Below are positions 54,840 through 61,800 of a DNA stretch of 64,000 nucleotides, one piece after another. The first letter of the stretch is position 1; the number at the start of each line of letters is the position of its first letter. The notes beneath the pieces are model-generated. The model did not search any database. It saw only the letters and a list, made by a program, of their open reading frames with translations, and was not told where the DNA came from. The translations under genes and the position numbers were made by a program. The stretch comes from Chelativorans sp. J32. GTDB taxonomy: Bacteria > Pseudomonadota > Alphaproteobacteria > Rhizobiales > Rhizobiaceae. The DNA is taken from positions 1-64,000 of the forward strand of contig NZ_JAEQ01000001.1 in assembly GCF_000518985.1 (NCBI RefSeq), in the 5' to 3' direction.

Positions 54840-55304
54840 ATGAGAGAACGCCCGGCACCGCAGCGCTCCATCGTGGTGGATGGAAAAGTTCTGCCCGAAT
54901 TGCTGGACGAGGCGACGATCGAGGCCGTCGTGCATGGCTTTTACGACCGGATCCGCAAGGATGAACTGCTCGGTCCGATCTTCAGCAAGGCGATCGCGCC
55001 GGATGAGTGGCCGCGTCATCTGGCGAAGATGTGCGATTTCTGGTCGGCCACCCTCCTGCGTACCGGTCGTTATAATGGACGCCCGCTGCCGGCACATATC
55101 GCCGTTCCGGGCCTGGAGGAGGTTCATTTTCGGCGCTGGCTTGGTCTCTTCAGGGAGACGGTGCAGGAGCTTTGCACGCCGGATGTCGCGGCTCTTTTCA
55201 TGAGCCGCGCTCTGCGCGTTGCGCATTCCTTCAGGCTGGGCATCGCGTTCCATCGGGGCGAAGATTCGCTTTCCGTGGAACCGATCCGCGAGGAAACCTT
55301 GTGA
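54840..55304 (+). CDS. Group III truncated haemoglobin
   Basis: 154 residues of the 2-on-2 globin fold. MCDFWSATLLRTGRYNGRPLPAH and EEVHFRRWLGLF include the proximal-His region of the trHbP/ctb group. GGGGAAAGA precedes the ATG at 54,840. It probably handles oxygen or nitric oxide. Confidence 0.88.
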   Translation: MRERPAPQRSIVVDGKVLPELLDEATIEAVVHGFYDRIRKDELLGPIFSKAIAPDEWPRHLAKMCDFWSATLLRTGRYNGRPLPAHIAVPGLEEVHFRRWLGLFRETVQELCTPDVAALFMSRALRVAHSFRLGIAFHRGEDSLSVEPIREETL

Positions 55305-55364
55305 ACTCGCCAGCGAGTACCCCCGTATACGCGCCGTTTCCTGCGCTTTACTGCGCGCTGGCTT

Positions 55365-55489
55365 GACAAAGTAGAAGAAGCAGCCAAACTGTCGGCATGA
55401 ATAGAATGCACACTGCCATTTTTCGGGTTCGTCCGATCGCGGAATCTTAGCCCCTGGGGCTCGGCAGTTAGCGCCCCGAGCTCCGGGGG
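55365..55489 (+). ncRNA. Leader element A before rnk: promoter, short reading frame and hairpin
   Basis: TTGACA (55,365-55,370), 17 bp, then AAACTG. An ATG at 55,397 lies only a few bases after this -10-like box, so transcription could start at or next to it (leaderless). The 17-residue frame reads MNRMHTAIFRVRPIAES and ends in TAG at 55,448-55,450. Immediately after, CCCCTGGGGCTCGG (55,451-55,464) pairs with CCGAGCTCCGGGGG (55,476-55,489), 14 bp with two wobbles; a shorter alternative CCCCG/CGGGG hairpin followed by TGCATTT is nested in it. This is the layout of an attenuator. The element is related to the one at 56,089. Confidence 0.5.
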
Positions 55490-55609
55490 TGCATTTAGGC
55501 TGCAAATTCCTGCAGTTATTGTCTCAGGCGCCTCCAAACCAGCATCACATGCCTGCAGCACCGGCTCGCGCAGCTTTCGCCTGCATGCATATACGGAGAA
55601 GCCCGAATC

Positions 55610-56047
55610 ATGACCAACTCGAAGAAGAGCAGCCGCAAGCCGAGGATCGTCGTCAGCGACATCGATTACAGGCGGCTTACAAACCTCGCGGCGGGAGCGC
55701 TCAGCCGCAGTCCTGAGGTTGCCGAGGAGCTTCAGGGCGAACTGGACAGAGCCCAGGTGGTCCCCGCGGGTTCCGTCCCGGCGGATGTCGTCCAGATGGG
55801 CTCGACGGTGGAGTTCCAGTCGGACAATGCCCAGCAGCGGCGGGTCACGCTGGTTTTCCCCGGCGAGGCGGATATCGCACAGAACAGGATCTCGATCCTC
55901 ACCCCGATTGGCGCTGCCCTCATCGGGCTGTCGCCAGGCCAGTCCATCACCTGGACGGCGCGGGACGGCCGCCAACACGAACTGACGGTTGTGCGCGTCG
56001 AACAGCCAAATCCGGCCATGGCCGACCCGGTCTCCCAAAACGGCTAG
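55610..56047 (+). CDS. rnk: Nucleoside diphosphate kinase regulator, Rnk
   Basis: 145 residues. RIVVSDIDYRRLTNLA and ELDRAQVVPAGSVPADVVQM match Rnk; the C-terminal half (VTLVFPGEADIAQNRISILT, GAALIGLSPGQSI) is the GreA/GreB C-terminal fold that can bind the RNA polymerase secondary-channel rim. It lacks the long GreA coiled coil. The first 10 residues are basic. It opens a same-strand run: rnk, Rnk-like, S11, alpha subunit. Confidence 0.9.
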   Translation: MTNSKKSSRKPRIVVSDIDYRRLTNLAAGALSRSPEVAEELQGELDRAQVVPAGSVPADVVQMGSTVEFQSDNAQQRRVTLVFPGEADIAQNRISILTPIGAALIGLSPGQSITWTARDGRQHELTVVRVEQPNPAMADPVSQNG

Positions 56048-56088
56048 CTCTCTGCTATCGTCAGAGAAAGAATGATTGGGTTGGATGG

Positions 56089-56196
56089 ATGCGGAATTTC
56101 ATAATCGGTAACAAGCTGGTGTTCCGCTCAGGTCGTCTGATCGCAGGCACGTAGCCCCTGGCGCGGCGTCAAGGAGACGCACGCCGGGGCCAGGGG
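56089..56196 (+). ncRNA. Leader element B before the second Rnk-like gene
   Basis: A 21-residue frame (56,089-56,154, beginning MRNFIIGNKL and ending FRSGRLIAGT) closes with TAG directly before CCCCTGGC (56,155-56,162), which pairs with GCCAGGGG (56,189-56,196); an inner stem GGCGT/ACGCC (56,165-56,169 with 56,181-56,185) extends it. The DNA around the stop, CGTCTGATCGCAGG..TAGCCCCTGG, matches leader A (CGTCCGATCGCGG..TAGCCCCTGG). So two related leaders each precede an Rnk-type gene. Confidence 0.5.
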
Positions 56197-56266
56197 ACAT
56201 TCCTTCACGACAAGCGGATCTAACTCGGTGCATCGTGTTCACGACGCGGTGCGGCGGAGAAGTGCT

Positions 56267-56815
56267 ATGTCCACTACCTCTCGTTGTCACCTGACGGCGA
56301 AGGATTTCAGCATCCTTGAGGTGATTCTTCAAAGCGGCGTCAACAATGACGAAGCTTACCTTCGCCTGTTGCGGCGGAAGCTTTCGACCGCAACGGTCCT
56401 GTTCCAGGACGACATCGACCCTCAGGTCGCGACCATAGACAGCCTCGTCGATTTCACCATCGACGGCAGGCTGAGTGAAAACCGCATTCTCGTCAACGAG
56501 AGCAAAGAAGCCTCGACGGGAATGACCTTGCCCATCACGACGCTCCGCGGGCTGGCTTTGCTTGGTCTTACGGCCGGCGATGCCATTGTGGTCGAGCGCG
56601 CCGATGGCGGTCACGAAGAAATCAGGCTGAATATGGTGACGTTCCAGCCGGAAGCCGACAGGCGCGAGCGATCGCTTCAGCAGGCGGACGCCGAAACCGC
56701 GTCGGATAGGCAGCCTCCCGTCATCAGCTTTGCGGCGCGCAGGAAGACGTCGGCGAGAATGCCTATCGAAGGACCATTCGACCCCGACGACGATCCCGGG
56801 CCGCGCGCAGCCTGA
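56267..56815 (+). CDS. Second Rnk/GreA-C-like protein
   Basis: 182 residues from the ATG at 56,267. HLTAKDFSILEVILQS and VDFTIDGRLSENRILV followed by ITTLRGLALLGLTAGDAIVV place it in the Rnk/GreA-C-terminal family, clearly diverged from the rnk gene 220 bp upstream. Residues after about 135 form a polar, probably disordered tail (EADRRERSLQQADAE) not found in rnk. It lies 85 bp before the S11 paralog on the same strand. Confidence 0.8.
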   Translation: MSTTSRCHLTAKDFSILEVILQSGVNNDEAYLRLLRRKLSTATVLFQDDIDPQVATIDSLVDFTIDGRLSENRILVNESKEASTGMTLPITTLRGLALLGLTAGDAIVVERADGGHEEIRLNMVTFQPEADRRERSLQQADAETASDRQPPVISFAARRKTSARMPIEGPFDPDDDPGPRAA

Positions 56816-56900
56816 CACCCCGAAACCCCCGTTCATGCGAGCTGGAGCGTATCCGCACGGGTGCGCGCTGCGGCCGCATGGGAAAAGAGTGATTTAAGAC

Positions 56901-57287
56901 ATGGCCAAAGAAACCCGCATCGCGCGCCGCGCGCGAAAGAACATCTCCTCGGGCGTTGCCCATATTTCCTCCTCGTTCAACAACACGATGATCACCATCA
57001 CAGACGAGCAGGGGAACACCATCGCCTGGTCGTCCGCTGGCACGGCCGGGTTCAAGGGTTCTCGCAAATCCACTCCCTTCGCGGCCCAGACCGCTGCTGA
57101 AGACTGCGCGCGAAAGGCAAAGGAGCACGGCATGAACATGCTGGCGGTCGAGATTTCCGGACCGGGTTCAGGAAGGGAATCGGCAGTTCGCGGCCTGCAG
57201 GCGGCAGGTTTCACGATCACTTCAATCACCGATGTTACGCCCGTTCCCCACAATGGGTGCAGGAGTTACCGGAAGCGGCGCGTGTAG
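56901..57287 (+). CDS. rpsK: Second-copy 30S ribosomal protein S11
   Basis: 128 residues, full length and without breaks. [56 protein letters not shown] and [16 protein letters not shown] match S11 throughout. Compared with the Rhizobiales S11 I remember, it differs at about a fifth of positions (Cys69 in AAEDCARKA, and RSYRKRRV in place of RPPKRRRV). No rpsM precedes it and no rplQ follows, so it is outside the alpha operon and is inferred to be a paralog. S11 sits on the platform of the small subunit near the mRNA exit. Confidence 0.9.
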
Positions 57288-57325
57288 CAACGCGCCTGAT
57301 CCCGCATTCCGCCCGCAGTCTGACG

Positions 57326-57427
57326 TTACAGCGCCGTGCGTCCATTCGGACGCAAAAGGACGCTGTAAGTTATTGAATCGACGCATCGTGCTTTCCGAGA
57401 ACCAATTCAGGTTTTCGGGCTGGTGCT
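57326..57427. repeat. RIME-like rhizobial intergenic repeat, copy 2
   Basis: Matches 26,595-26,694: TTACAGCGCCGTGCGTCCATT, TTGAATCGACGCAT and TTTCGGGC in the same order. It fills the gap between the S11 and alpha paralogs and ends about 10 bp before the alpha ATG, leaving only a weak ribosome site (AGAAGTGG). Confidence 0.75.
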
Positions 57428-57437
57428 GTAGAAGTGG

Positions 57438-58463
57438 ATGAAGACAGTGTTTCGGAAGAATTGGCAGGAGCTGGTCAAGCCAACCAAGCCGGATCTACGA
57501 TCCGAGCAAAACATCACGACGCTCGTCCTGGAGCCGCTTGAACGCGGCTTCGGCTATACGCTGGGGCATTCCTTGCGTCGCGTCCTCCTGTCGTCATTGC
57601 CCGGTGCAGCCGTCACATCCGTCCGGATAGCGGGGTCCCCGAAGGTCTTTGCTTCGGATGAGGAGCGCCTTGATGCGATTACCGAACTGATCCTCAACAT
57701 CAAGGAAATCGCGTTGCGCATGGATGTGGAAAGCGCGCCGGGGCAGTTGATCATCCAGCAACGCGGCCCCGGCGCGGTCCTGGCCGGAAACGCGCGAGCT
57801 TCAGGCGGCATCGAGATTCTGAACCCGGATCATCCCATCTGCGTCGTCGAGCCCGGCTGCGAAATGACGCTCGAAATGATGGTCGGCTACGGGCGGGGAT
57901 ACCAACCGGCAGAGCCCCTGGCTCTCGAGCAGAACGACGGGCCGATCTTCATTCCGATCGATGCATTGTATTCGCCCGTCAGGCGCGTGAACGTCGTTGT
58001 CGAAAACACCCGCCATGGCCAGGTTCTCGATTATGACCGTCTGATCCTCACCGTGGTCACCAATGGCGTGCTCTCCGGAGACGACGCACTCAGCCATGCC
58101 GCGCAGATCCTTCGCGACCAGTTCTCGGTGTTCATCAATTTCGAGGAAGCGCAACTGGAACAGCCGGAGCCTCCTCAAAACGAACTGCCGTTCAATCCTG
58201 TCCTGCTGAAACGGATGGACGAATTTGAGCTCTCCGTCCGTTCCAGCAACTGTATGAGAAACGACAATATCGTCTATCTCGGCGATCTCGTGTCCATGAC
58301 CGAGGCGCAGCTTCTTCGGGTTCCCAATTTTGGCCGCAAGTCTTTGAACGAGATCAAGGCATTGCTTGCGGAGCTGGGTCTACGCCTCGGGATGGAAATC
58401 CCGGAATGGCCTCCCGTCGATTTGGGGGAGATGGCGGCCCGATATAGCAAGGAATGGTCCTGA
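57438..58463 (+). CDS. rpoA: Second-copy, diverged RNA polymerase alpha subunit
   Basis: 341 residues, full length. The N-terminal domain (1 to about 235) keeps the dimer/beta-contact helix LGHSLRRVLLSSLPGAAVTS (42-61), though the usual Asn is His44, and SPVRRVNVVVENTRHGQVLDYD. The near-invariant VLHEFSSIPGVRED stretch is replaced by residues 66-80 (GSPKVFASDEERLDA). The C-terminal domain retains the DNA and activator contacts, Arg268, Asn271, Cys272, Lys301, Ser302 and Glu305. It follows the S11 paralog as in the alpha operon but without rpsM or rplQ. It could assemble into a minority form of polymerase. Confidence 0.92.
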   Translation: MKTVFRKNWQELVKPTKPDLRSEQNITTLVLEPLERGFGYTLGHSLRRVLLSSLPGAAVTSVRIAGSPKVFASDEERLDAITELILNIKEIALRMDVESAPGQLIIQQRGPGAVLAGNARASGGIEILNPDHPICVVEPGCEMTLEMMVGYGRGYQPAEPLALEQNDGPIFIPIDALYSPVRRVNVVVENTRHGQVLDYDRLILTVVTNGVLSGDDALSHAAQILRDQFSVFINFEEAQLEQPEPPQNELPFNPVLLKRMDEFELSVRSSNCMRNDNIVYLGDLVSMTEAQLLRVPNFGRKSLNEIKALLAELGLRLGMEIPEWPPVDLGEMAARYSKEWS

Positions 58464-58754
58464 GCCTACAGCCCTCCGCCGGTATTGAACCGTTGCAGGG
58501 TTTGCCAGATCGCGAAGATCCGGCGAAGAACCGGCCCAGCGTCCGGCGCAACTGCTCAGCAATATTTCTCATGCAGCCCGGCCGACGGCAAACCGTCGGA
58601 CCATGCTTGCCGACGCCTGATTTTCGCGCCGCCTTCCGGTGCGCATTGCACCTCTTTCATCGAATTCAAGGGAGTCTGGCCCTTCGCAACCTCAGCGATC
58701 GCTTTGGCCAGTGCCCAGCGGTTTTGCAGAAGGCCCCGACCGCTGCACATATTG
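58464..58754. other. Intergenic region alpha paralog to metH
   Basis: No gene supported. A 64-codon open frame on the minus strand (58,750-58,556) has no recognised similarity. An imperfect GC-rich inverted repeat lies near 58,575-58,600. No clear terminator was found after the alpha gene. Confidence 0.4.
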
Positions 58755-58774
58755 ACATAAAGATATCTTTATGT
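58755..58774. promoter_or_regulatory. ACATAAAGATATCTTTATGT palindrome at the metH promoter
   Basis: A perfect 20-bp palindrome starting within TTGACA (58,752-58,757) and 35 bp before the metH ATG. Core arms ATAAAGA/TCTTTAT are shared with the ahcY site at 40,699. Overlap with the -35 hexamer suggests repression. Confidence 0.65.
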
Positions 58775-58808
58775 GATGAATATCGCATTCTCCTGCAGGT
58801 CTGGATTT

Positions 58809-61800
58809 ATGTCGCAAGCAAACACGTCGCTTAATGGGCTTTTCGGCGAAACGGCTCCGAAACCCAACGGATCGGAAATTCGCGCCGCGCTCGAAGCGGC
58901 GGCGCGCGAGCGCATCCTGATCCTGGACGGCGCGATGGGCACGCAGATCCAGGGGCTGGGCTTCGATGAAGATCATTTTCGCGGAGACCGTTTTGGCGGT
59001 TGCGCCTGCCACCAGCAGGGAAACAACGATCTCCTGATCCTGACGCAGCCGAGGGCGATCGAAGAAATCCATTACCAATATGCGATCGCCGGCGCCGACA
59101 TCATCGAGACCAACACCTTTTCTTCCACGCGTATCGCCCAGGCGGACTACGGCATGGAAGAGATGGTCTATGAGTTGAACCGCGACGGCGCGCGGCTGGC
59201 GCGGCGTGCGGTCAAGCGCGCCGAACAGGAGGACGGCAAGCGCCGCTTCGTTGCCGGTGCGCTCGGGCCCACGAATCGCACGGCCTCGATCTCACCCGAC
59301 GTGAACAATCCCGGCTATCGCGCGATCACCTTCGATGACCTGAGGATCGCCTATGGTGAGCAGCTGCGCGGGCTGATCGACGGCGGGGCCGACATCATCC
59401 TCATCGAGACGATCTTCGACACGCTGAATGCCAAAGCGGCGATCTTTGCGGCCGAAGAAATCTTTGCGGAAAAGGGCGTGCGGTTGCCGGTGATGATTTC
59501 TGGCACGATCACCGACCTTTCCGGACGCACTCTATCCGGCCAGACCCCGACGGCGTTCTGGCATTCAGTGCGCCATGCGAAGCCTTTCACAATCGGGCTC
59601 AACTGCGCGCTCGGGGCTGCCGCGATGCGGCCGCATCTGGCGGAGATCTCCGGCGTTGCCGAGACATTCACCTGCGCCTATCCGAATGCGGGGCTGCCGA
59701 ACGAATTCGGCCAATATGACGAGAGCCCGGAGGCTATGGCGGCGCAGATCGAGGCGTTCGCGCGCGAAGGGCTCGTCAATGTGGTGGGTGGCTGCTGTGG
59801 TTCGACGCCCGAGCACATCCGCGCCATCGCCAAGGCGGTGGCCGGGCACAAGCCGCGCGAGCTGCCGAAGCCGCCGCGGCTGATGCGTCTTTCCGGCCTC
59901 GAGCCATTCACGCTCACCAAGGATATTCCGTTCGTCAATGTCGGCGAGCGCACCAATGTCACCGGCTCGGCCAGATTCCGCAAGCTGATCACCGCCGGCG
60001 ACTACGCTGCCGCGCTCGATGTGGCGCGCGACCAGGTGGCGAATGGCGCCCAGGTTATCGACGTCAATATGGACGAGGGCCTGATCGATTCGAAGAAGGC
60101 GATGGTCGAGTACCTGAACCTGATTGCCGCCGAGCCGGACATCGCCCGCGTCCCGATCATGGTCGATTCCTCCAAGTGGGAGGTGATCGAGGCCGGTCTG
60201 AAATGCATCCAGGGCAAGCCGATCGTCAACTCGATCTCGATGAAGGAGGGCGAGGAGGCTTTTCTCGAACATGCCAGGCTGTGCCGGGCCTATGGTGCCG
60301 CCGTGGTCGTCATGGCTTTCGACGAGAAGGGGCAGGCCGACACCAAGGCGCGCAAGGTGGAGATCTGCACCCGGGCCTACAAGCTGTTGACCGAAAAGGC
60401 AGTTCTTGCCCCGGAAGACATCATCTTCGATCCGAACATCTTCGCTGTGGCGACCGGCATCGAGGAGCATGACAATTACGGCGTCGACTTTATCGAAGCC
60501 GCGCGGGAGATCACCAGGACCCTGCCGCATGTGCATGTCTCGGGCGGCGTTTCGAACCTTTCCTTCTCGTTCCGCGGCAACGAGCCAGTGCGCGAGGCGA
60601 TGCACGCCGTGTTCCTTTACCATGCGATTCATGCCGGCATGGATATGGGCATCGTCAATGCGGGCCAGCTCGCCGTCTATGAATCCATCGATCCCGAGCT
60701 TCGCGAATCCTGCGAAGATGTGGTGCTCAACCGCCAGCCCAAAGCAGGCGGCACCGCGACCGAACGCTTGCTGGAAATCGCGGAACGCTTCAAGGGTGCG
60801 GGCGGAAAGGAAGCGAAGGAACGGGACCTCGCCTGGCGCGAGTGGCCCGTGGAAAAGCGGCTTGAACACGCGCTGGTAAACGGCATCACGGAGTTCATCG
60901 AGGAGGACACCGAGGAAGCCCGCCTCAGGGCCGAAAAGCCGCTCCACGTCATCGAAGGTCCCCTGATGGCCGGCATGAATGTGGTGGGAGACCTTTTTGG
61001 CTCCGGCAAGATGTTCCTGCCGCAGGTCGTCAAGTCGGCCCGCGTGATGAAGCAGGCCGTTGCCGTTCTTCTGCCTTATATGGAAGCCGAGAAGCTTGCC
61101 AATGGCGGCGGCGAGCGTGAAGCCGCCGGCAAGATTCTGATGGCAACGGTGAAGGGTGATGTACACGACATCGGCAAGAACATCGTCGGGGTTGTACTCG
61201 CCTGCAACAATTACGAGATTATTGATCTCGGCGTGATGGTGCCGGCCACGAAGATCCTGCAGACCGCGCGCGAGGAGAAGGTGGACATCATCGGCCTCTC
61301 CGGTCTCATCACGCCGTCGCTCGACGAGATGGTGCATGTTGCCTCGGAGATGGAGCGTGAAGGTTTCGACATTCCGCTTCTGATCGGCGGCGCGACGACG
61401 AGCCGCGTGCACACGGCGGTCAAGATCCATCCCCGCTACGAGCGCGGCCAGGCTGTCTATGTCACCGATGCGAGTCGTGCGGTCGGCACCGTCTCAAATC
61501 TCCTGTCGCCCGAGACCAGGGCCGATTATGTCGAATCGCTTCGCGCGGAATACCGGAAGGTGGCCGAAGCACATGCGCGTTCGGAAGCGGAGAAGCAGCG
61601 CCTGCCGCTCGCCAAGGCGCGCGAGAACGCCCACCGGATCGACTGGGCGGCTTACCAGCCGCCGAAGCCGGCGTTCCTTGGAACAAAGACGTTCGAGACC
61701 TGGGACCTGGCGGAACTGGCGCGCTATATCGATTGGACGCCCTTCTTCCAGACCTGGGAGCTGAAGGGCCGCTATCCGAAGATCCTCGAAGACGAGAAGC

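Follow-up and report, generated by a model that had tools for sequence, protein, structure and literature searches.

Results

A second rpsK–rpoA pair behind two Rnk-type genes

The window analyzed here is a stretch of 64,000 nucleotides from Chelativorans sp. J32 (contig NZ_JAEQ01000001.1, positions 1 to 64,000). Four genes stand in it upstream of metH:

55610..56047, + strand: rnkA, Rnk-family protein of 145 aa, with Rnk_N and GreA_GreB domains (Pfam; NF004396 175.7 bits, cut-off 109)
56267..56815, + strand: rnkB, diverged Rnk-like protein of 182 aa when counted from the ATG at 56267 (alternative GTG at 56228)
56901..57287, + strand: rpsK2, second ribosomal protein S11 (S11-2), 128 aa (PF00411, uS11_bact)
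57438..58463, + strand: rpoA2, second RNA polymerase α subunit (RpoA2), 341 aa (Pfam, NF003513, α-fold model)

The metH gene follows downstream of rpoA2, also on the + strand, giving the order rnkA-rnkB-rpsK2-rpoA2-metH, with intergenic gaps of about 220 (rnkA/rnkB), 85 (rnkB/rpsK2) and 150 bases (rpsK2/rpoA2). The rpsK2 and rpoA2 reading frames are of full length and have no internal stops. S11-2 scores 163.8 bits with PF00411 (cut-off 25.1) and 182.5 with the NCBIfam model uS11_bact (cut-off 154.5), which assigns it to the uS11 family; the dimerisation, insert and C-terminal domains of RpoA2 are each above the Pfam cut-offs, and the score of 397 with the NCBIfam α model NF003513 (cut-off 302) makes the protein an RpoA by the curated standard. 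This is in agreement with an earlier note on this DNA, in which intact, full-length S11 and α genes were described as adjacent at 56901-58463, with Rnk-like genes (here rnkA and rnkB, upstream) and metH (downstream) as their flanks.

An inverted repeat, spotted by eye, is located between rpsK2 and rpoA2 (TTACAGCG / CGCTGTAA, window 57326-57368) and encloses a smaller one (GCGTCC/GGACGC). Immediately 5' of metH there is a palindrome, also spotted by eye (CATAAAGATATCTTTATG, window 58756-58773), which resembles what we take to be an operator of the S-adenosylhomocysteine type; a block of about 30 bases at this palindrome is also conserved 5' of metH in the genus genomes G010 and G013. A simple scan of the locus found no sigma-70-like promoter, and the Rfam search of window 55000-59500, up to an E-value of 0.5, gave no RNA match.

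The normal pair is present elsewhere in the genome

When the Chelativorans sp. J32 genome (4.70 Mb in 45 contigs, completeness 100, contamination 1.1) is searched with PF01000 (the α insert domain) and PF00411 (S11), two places are found for each, on contigs C17 and C1. C17, which is not the contig of the window, carries secY, adk, rpsM, rpsK, rpoA and rplQ in the usual order, so the normal pair that the earlier note had to assume is indeed there, and the window genes are not relocated only copies. Clearly, rpsK2-rpoA2 is a genuine second pair besides the normal one. The domains of rpoB (β) and rpoC (β′) that were searched have one match each in this genome.

The divergence of the second pair, measured against the genome's own normal proteins, is substantial, in line with the claim of the earlier note that both proteins differ clearly from the normal Rhizobiales versions: RpoA2 and RpoA have 186 of 334 residues in common, and S11-2 and S11 have 104 of 128.

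Within the genus, rpoA2 is found in two of 16 genomes, those of Chelativorans sp. J32 and Chelativorans sp. Marseille-P2723 (G005), whose RpoA2 (L005, L048, L096) is 62% identical to that of the window. A search of 101 relatives, 15 genus mates included, gave matches in 97, with two matches in the own genome and in G005. The rpsK2 gene is found in one of the 16 genomes; Marseille-P2723 has a single S11 match and no rpsK between rnkB and rpoA2.

Assembly contacts are kept, with changes in one loop and in part of the C-terminal domain

In a reference set of 112 normal RpoAs, 87 columns are at least 97% uniform. The window RpoA2 keeps 72 of these, the Marseille-P2723 RpoA2 keeps 70 and both keep 68, so that retention is far above that in the other columns (Fisher p 3e-10 and 2e-8). 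The residues E261, R265, N268, C269, G296, K298, S299 and E302, which we take to be sigma and DNA contact positions, are retained in both RpoA2s. Retained in both are also the dimer positions F35, T38, L39, S50 and Q227, the β-contacting R45 and L48 and the β′-contacting K86, the roles of these tested positions being those given in PMC3294249. At two further positions, I46 (V or I) and V173 (I), the residues of the RpoA2s are also found in normal αs. The view of the earlier note that function-critical residues are kept is thus borne out: the tested dimer, β, β′, sigma and DNA positions hold residues of normal αs. The model of RpoA2 (30 sequences, single chain, no partners) has the usual α elements at a mean pLDDT of 83.8.

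The N-terminal loop at positions 66-77 (E. coli numbering), near-universal in normal αs, is altered in both RpoA2s. Changed in both are N41 (to H), H66, E67, G73, V74 and D77, and the glycine at 169 is absent. These loop changes suggest a different fit at one of the α positions, and loss of the uniform loop could also make assembly fail.

The C-terminal domain (CTD) is the region in which the two RpoA2s are most alike (80%), and across its 80 columns they depart jointly from the own normal α at 13. The substitutions common to both are V257M, L260F, A267S, L270M, I282V, K284M, E288Q, M289L, T292V and V306L, where the first letter is the residue in the alphaproteobacterial rows; E288Q also occurs in three and M289L in two of the 112 normal RpoA rows. 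Positions 285-290 presumably belong to the activator face of α, and the substitutions there point to a possibly altered activator response.

The second α is under purifying selection

Between the rpoA2 genes of the two species, codon positions 1, 2 and 3 differ at 25.9, 16.2 and 56.2%, with dN 0.268 and dS 1.53 (NG86), and the bootstrap median of omega is 0.17 (range 0.106-0.243, 299 usable of 300 resamples). The normal rpoA genes of these species, compared in the same way, have dN 0.027, dS 0.89 and an identity of 95.8%; constraint on rpoA2 is therefore weaker, since its dN is ten times as high. Between rpsK2 and rpsK, the three codon positions differ at 17.2, 10.9 and 54.7%. Codon adaptation, with a reference set that includes the normal genes, is 0.51 for rpoA2 versus 0.79 for rpoA, and 0.50 for rpsK2 versus 0.71 for rpsK.

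The presence in two of 16 genus genomes, the raised dN, the plain codon usage and the relative without rpsK2 are what would be expected of a neutral duplicate heading for decay. This reading is nevertheless very unlikely, as even the upper bootstrap bound of omega (0.24) is low, the differences between rpsK2 and rpsK fall mostly in third positions, and rpsK2 and rpoA2 are intact even though the RpoA2s have diverged to 62% identity. Codon-level decay, which the earlier note had named, together with a lack of expression, as a finding that would speak against its proposal, is thus not seen in either gene; the two RpoA2s are under weaker but clear purifying selection and are not decaying.

The constraint is unevenly distributed, being loosest in N-terminal domain 2 (dN 0.467) and tightest in the CTD (dN 0.152). 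Such a pattern could also fit an α2 (the product of rpoA2) that acts outside the core enzyme, as a free, α-derived dimer binding DNA and sigma or as a decoy that competes with the polymerase at some promoters: the CTD and its DNA contacts are best preserved, and it is in the loose domain 2 that the uniform loop is changed. R45, L48 and K86, which are important for β/β′ binding in E. coli (PMC3294249), are retained in both proteins, and this makes a role outside the core enzyme rather improbable.

A probable origin of RpoA2 in or near the Rhizobiaceae

In a tree of 69 RpoAs, the two RpoA2s form one clade (support 100/100). This clade groups with Rhizobiaceae and Aurantimonadaceae (93/81) and branches off as the sister of the two families together (87/10), in an analysis whose bootstrap had not settled and in which the program warned of long branches. 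The stem of the clade is 1.77 changes per column. The AU test does not reject a position inside the Rhizobiaceae, whether the family is taken as 34 rows (p 0.34) or as its inner 29 (p 0.33), and because of the long branches it is unsure whether the clade belongs beside or inside this family. The own normal α is 99% identical to that of a genus relative, and its terminal branch has a length of 0. In the S11 tree, S11-2 is found among the Rhizobiaceae on a branch of 0.31, with no starred support.

With the RpoA2s in a single clade whose stem is long, the most likely origin that these trees suggest is a duplication, within the Rhizobiaceae or close to them, followed by fast evolution; a foreign origin is not supported by them. 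The genus tree separates the two carriers, although the AU test does not reject their sisterhood (p 0.06). Within about 8 kb upstream of rnkB, a NUDIX gene (62% identical) and a gene of the glutamate-dehydrogenase type (87% identical) are shared by the two rpoA2 loci. The latter is found in five of the 16 genus genomes, and its regions in G014, G013 and G015 (14.5 to 19 kb) have no NUDIX, rnkB or rpoA2 match. Probably the rpoA2 locus either descends from a shared ancestor or was transferred in one piece. The idea of a separate clade with conserved neighbours is therefore partly upheld: the clade exists and rnkB is conserved, but it comprises two species only, and rpsK and metH are not conserved beside it.

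Comparison with the second α of Francisella

Non-identical second rpoA genes were found among 1055 complete genomes in Francisella, Chloroflexus and Streptomyces avermitilis (PMC3294249). The Francisella α2 described there is likewise a diverged rpoA outside the ribosomal operon, lineage-specific and on a long branch. This likeness, together with the fast evolution of RpoA2, raises the question whether α2 acts only as one half of an oriented α1–α2 heterodimer, with one subunit towards β and the other towards β′. This would be a special form of the explanation preferred below, and α2 could be unfit for one of the two positions now that both RpoA2s have lost the 66-77 loop. According to the same source, R45 is lost in the Francisella α2 and both Francisella copies are sped up, whereas here R45 and the tested dimer positions are kept and the normal α is ordinary (99% identity, end branch 0). 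Because R45 is kept in both RpoA2s, the protein is not filed with the Francisella-type heterodimers, and we regard such a heterodimer as a minor possibility, though one to be taken seriously. Neither a second rpsK nor an Rnk-type neighbour is mentioned for Francisella in the passages of PMC3294249 considered here.

Like Chelativorans, Chloroflexus and Streptomyces avermitilis have a non-identical second rpoA in one genome, but they belong to other phyla; in the Chloroflexus second α, according to PMC3294249, the dimer and β/β′ regions are not drastically changed.

Second α genes are rare

In the family, 374 of 394 genomes matched and six have two matches, the own genome among them; apart from the own genome, none of the matches listed exceeds 57% identity. 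The other five double matches are of these kinds: pieces on two contigs (G142, G306, G396), two copies that both adjoin rpsM and rpsK, probably from a mixed assembly (G160), and a normal copy plus an α-CTD-like stretch (G250). One ORF of G250 (L170 1300-2949), 550 aa or more in length, combines an α CTD with sigma-70 region 4 and adjoins a Replic_Relax gene.

A scan of a contig collection of 84,980 species with two peptide patterns, which more distant copies would escape and from which records of the own genome were perhaps excluded, gave 106 relatives. Of the best 80, 79 adjoin at least one of rpsM, rpsK and rplQ, and the sole exception (L096) is the Marseille-P2723 locus.

In the phylum, 394 of 396 genomes match the α insert domain, and more than one match is found in four, the own genome and three of genus g263. 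A diverged second α occurs in at least two of the latter (G513, G520), where the surrounding 1.5 kb contain none of rpsM, rpsK and rplQ, so that the second α of the window is not unique in kind. These second αs follow directly after two HU-type genes (G520, L164 1489-2481; G513, L165 1495-2502), and their setting looks mobile, L164 having a recombinase nearby and L165 a repressor of the S24 type.

A phage or plasmid origin of rpoA2 was considered and rejected. In the viral contig collection no relative of a 75-residue fragment was found. The α genes in 19 phage records, apparently bacterial contigs that were deposited as phage, and in 87 plasmid records are all below 60% identity. Of the plasmid records, Yoonia was inspected as a case and one from E. 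coli as a yardstick. The Yoonia sp. BS5-3 plasmid pBS5-3-2 (NZ_CP150953.1) is a 16.5-kb circle with relaxase, MobC, replication and partition genes, and its α gene (L055 15259-16428), which is absent from the PLSDB gene table, is whole (389 aa, with a C-terminal extension) and groups with a Rhodobacteraceae α. A 193-aa protein with no Pfam or NCBIfam match is encoded beside it, with a 4-base overlap with the start of the α gene.

The mobile-looking settings of second αs elsewhere, the patchy presence of rpoA2 and the change of otherwise uniform positions with assembly contacts kept would also suit a bolder idea, namely a resistant stand-in for use when a phage protein or toxin attacks the normal α (and S11). 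Among the Pfam-named neighbours, no defence or mobile gene adjoins the window pair, and we give this idea hardly any weight. A literature search covering titles and openings of abstracts, with most subscription journals outside its range, found no such locus for Chelativorans, for rpoA or S11 paralogs, or for plasmid-borne or horizontally transferred rpoA.

The Rnk-type neighbours and metH

The Rnk protein of E. coli binds to RNA polymerase, displacing Gre factors and DksA. RnkA is recognized by the curated model of Rnk, the nucleoside diphosphate kinase regulator (NF004396, 175.7 versus the cut-off of 109), and RnkB falls below it (43.2) and has no Pfam match. A profile comparison of RnkB with RnkA (hhalign, probability 97.9, E 4.4e-13) points to a distant kinship; the structural model of RnkB is unusable (mean pLDDT 34.7). 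The acidic tail of the RnkB-like proteins has DDPGP, a variable residue and AA in six of seven aligned sequences (window 56267-56815, L005, L049, L050, L051, L052 and L053), and EDSGPLA in L050.

In Marseille-P2723 a homologue of rnkB (59.7% identical) precedes rpoA2, and in both species rnkB is the one gene directly before rpoA2 or its rpsK2; a joint function of RnkB and α2 is for this reason no more than a fair guess. No rnkA is found in 19 kb around the Marseille-P2723 locus. RnkB-like genes are found in six of the 16 genus genomes. The rnkA-rnkB pair stands without an α match in G015, G011, G008 and, a second time, on contig C2 of the own genome, and a stretch of G013 has rnkB alone; the Rnk pair is thus independent of rpoA2, since it occurs elsewhere without it. 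The pair on C2 (L051 7130-8214) is diverged. A linkage with metH was rejected, as the MetH loci of G008, G010 and G013 (seven genus genomes matched) are without the upstream genes of the window.

RnkA has the domain composition of E. coli Rnk as described in PMC4598747, a Rnk N-terminal and a GreA/GreB C-terminal domain. Unlike in E. coli, there are two Rnk-like genes in tandem here, before an α gene, and RnkB is diverged and has an acidic tail added.

The second S11

In 112 normal S11s, 47 columns reach a uniformity of 97% or more; S11-2 keeps 45 of them, and the two exceptions fall close to its C-terminus. It is similar to the alternative ribosomal protein paralogs (such as zinc-free L31/L36) in being a second copy outside the usual operon, but those paralogs, as far as the titles and abstracts listed go, concern zinc limitation. 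The presence of rpsK2 in one of 16 genus genomes makes a specialised ribosome containing S11-2 a weak reading. As rpsK directly precedes rpoA in the α operon, rpsK2 may have come along as a passenger when the duplication took place, kept intact in Chelativorans sp. J32.

Discussion

The locus is a real, rare and selected second α locus, accompanied in Chelativorans sp. J32 by a second S11. Second αs are already known from Francisella, Chloroflexus and Streptomyces avermitilis, and it is the setting of the Chelativorans locus that is new.

For α2, a specialised polymerase is the likeliest reading that its sequence suggests. With the assembly contacts retained and β and β′ apparently encoded by one gene each, the likeliest product would be a polymerase in which α2 replaces one or both α1. 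The explanation that we prefer as a whole, which we hold to be somewhat better than an even guess, starts from a duplicated rpoA that came to encode an alternative α on the single β/β′, with an altered activator response. The rpsK-rpoA segment of the α operon would have undergone duplication, within the Rhizobiaceae line or close to it, and the copy would have ended up downstream of an rnkA-rnkB pair, where the rpoA copy became the alternative subunit. The α2 protein would dimerise, with itself or with α1, and enter the cell's only β and β′; its CTD would retain the grip on DNA and sigma. With its altered N-terminal domain 2 (loop 66-77) and activator face of the CTD, the resulting polymerase would obey other activators or signals. 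The Rnk-type neighbours may act on the polymerase that bears α2, and S11-2, which looks usable, could enter ribosomes or just have ridden along. The assembly of α2, its changed activator response, its cooperation with RnkB and any role of S11-2 are what we infer from comparing genes and genomes.

A stronger version would be a cassette in which α2 retunes the polymerase to other activators, the Rnk-type secondary-channel proteins are matched to it and, in this species, S11-2 serves a matching ribosome, all made together under some condition. This we consider unlikely; if true, the cassette would be a compact alternative gene-expression machine.

The α subunit is nearly always encoded by a single gene, with more than one match in four of 396 phylum genomes, the own genome included. 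With its contacts kept and one loop and part of the activator face changed, RpoA2 is a natural experiment on those surfaces. The Rnk family is a further subject on which the locus bears: according to a 2015 review (PMC4598747), E. coli Rnk is a secondary-channel binding factor of unknown function, and the link between rpoA2 and an Rnk-type gene provides a genomic hint on this family.
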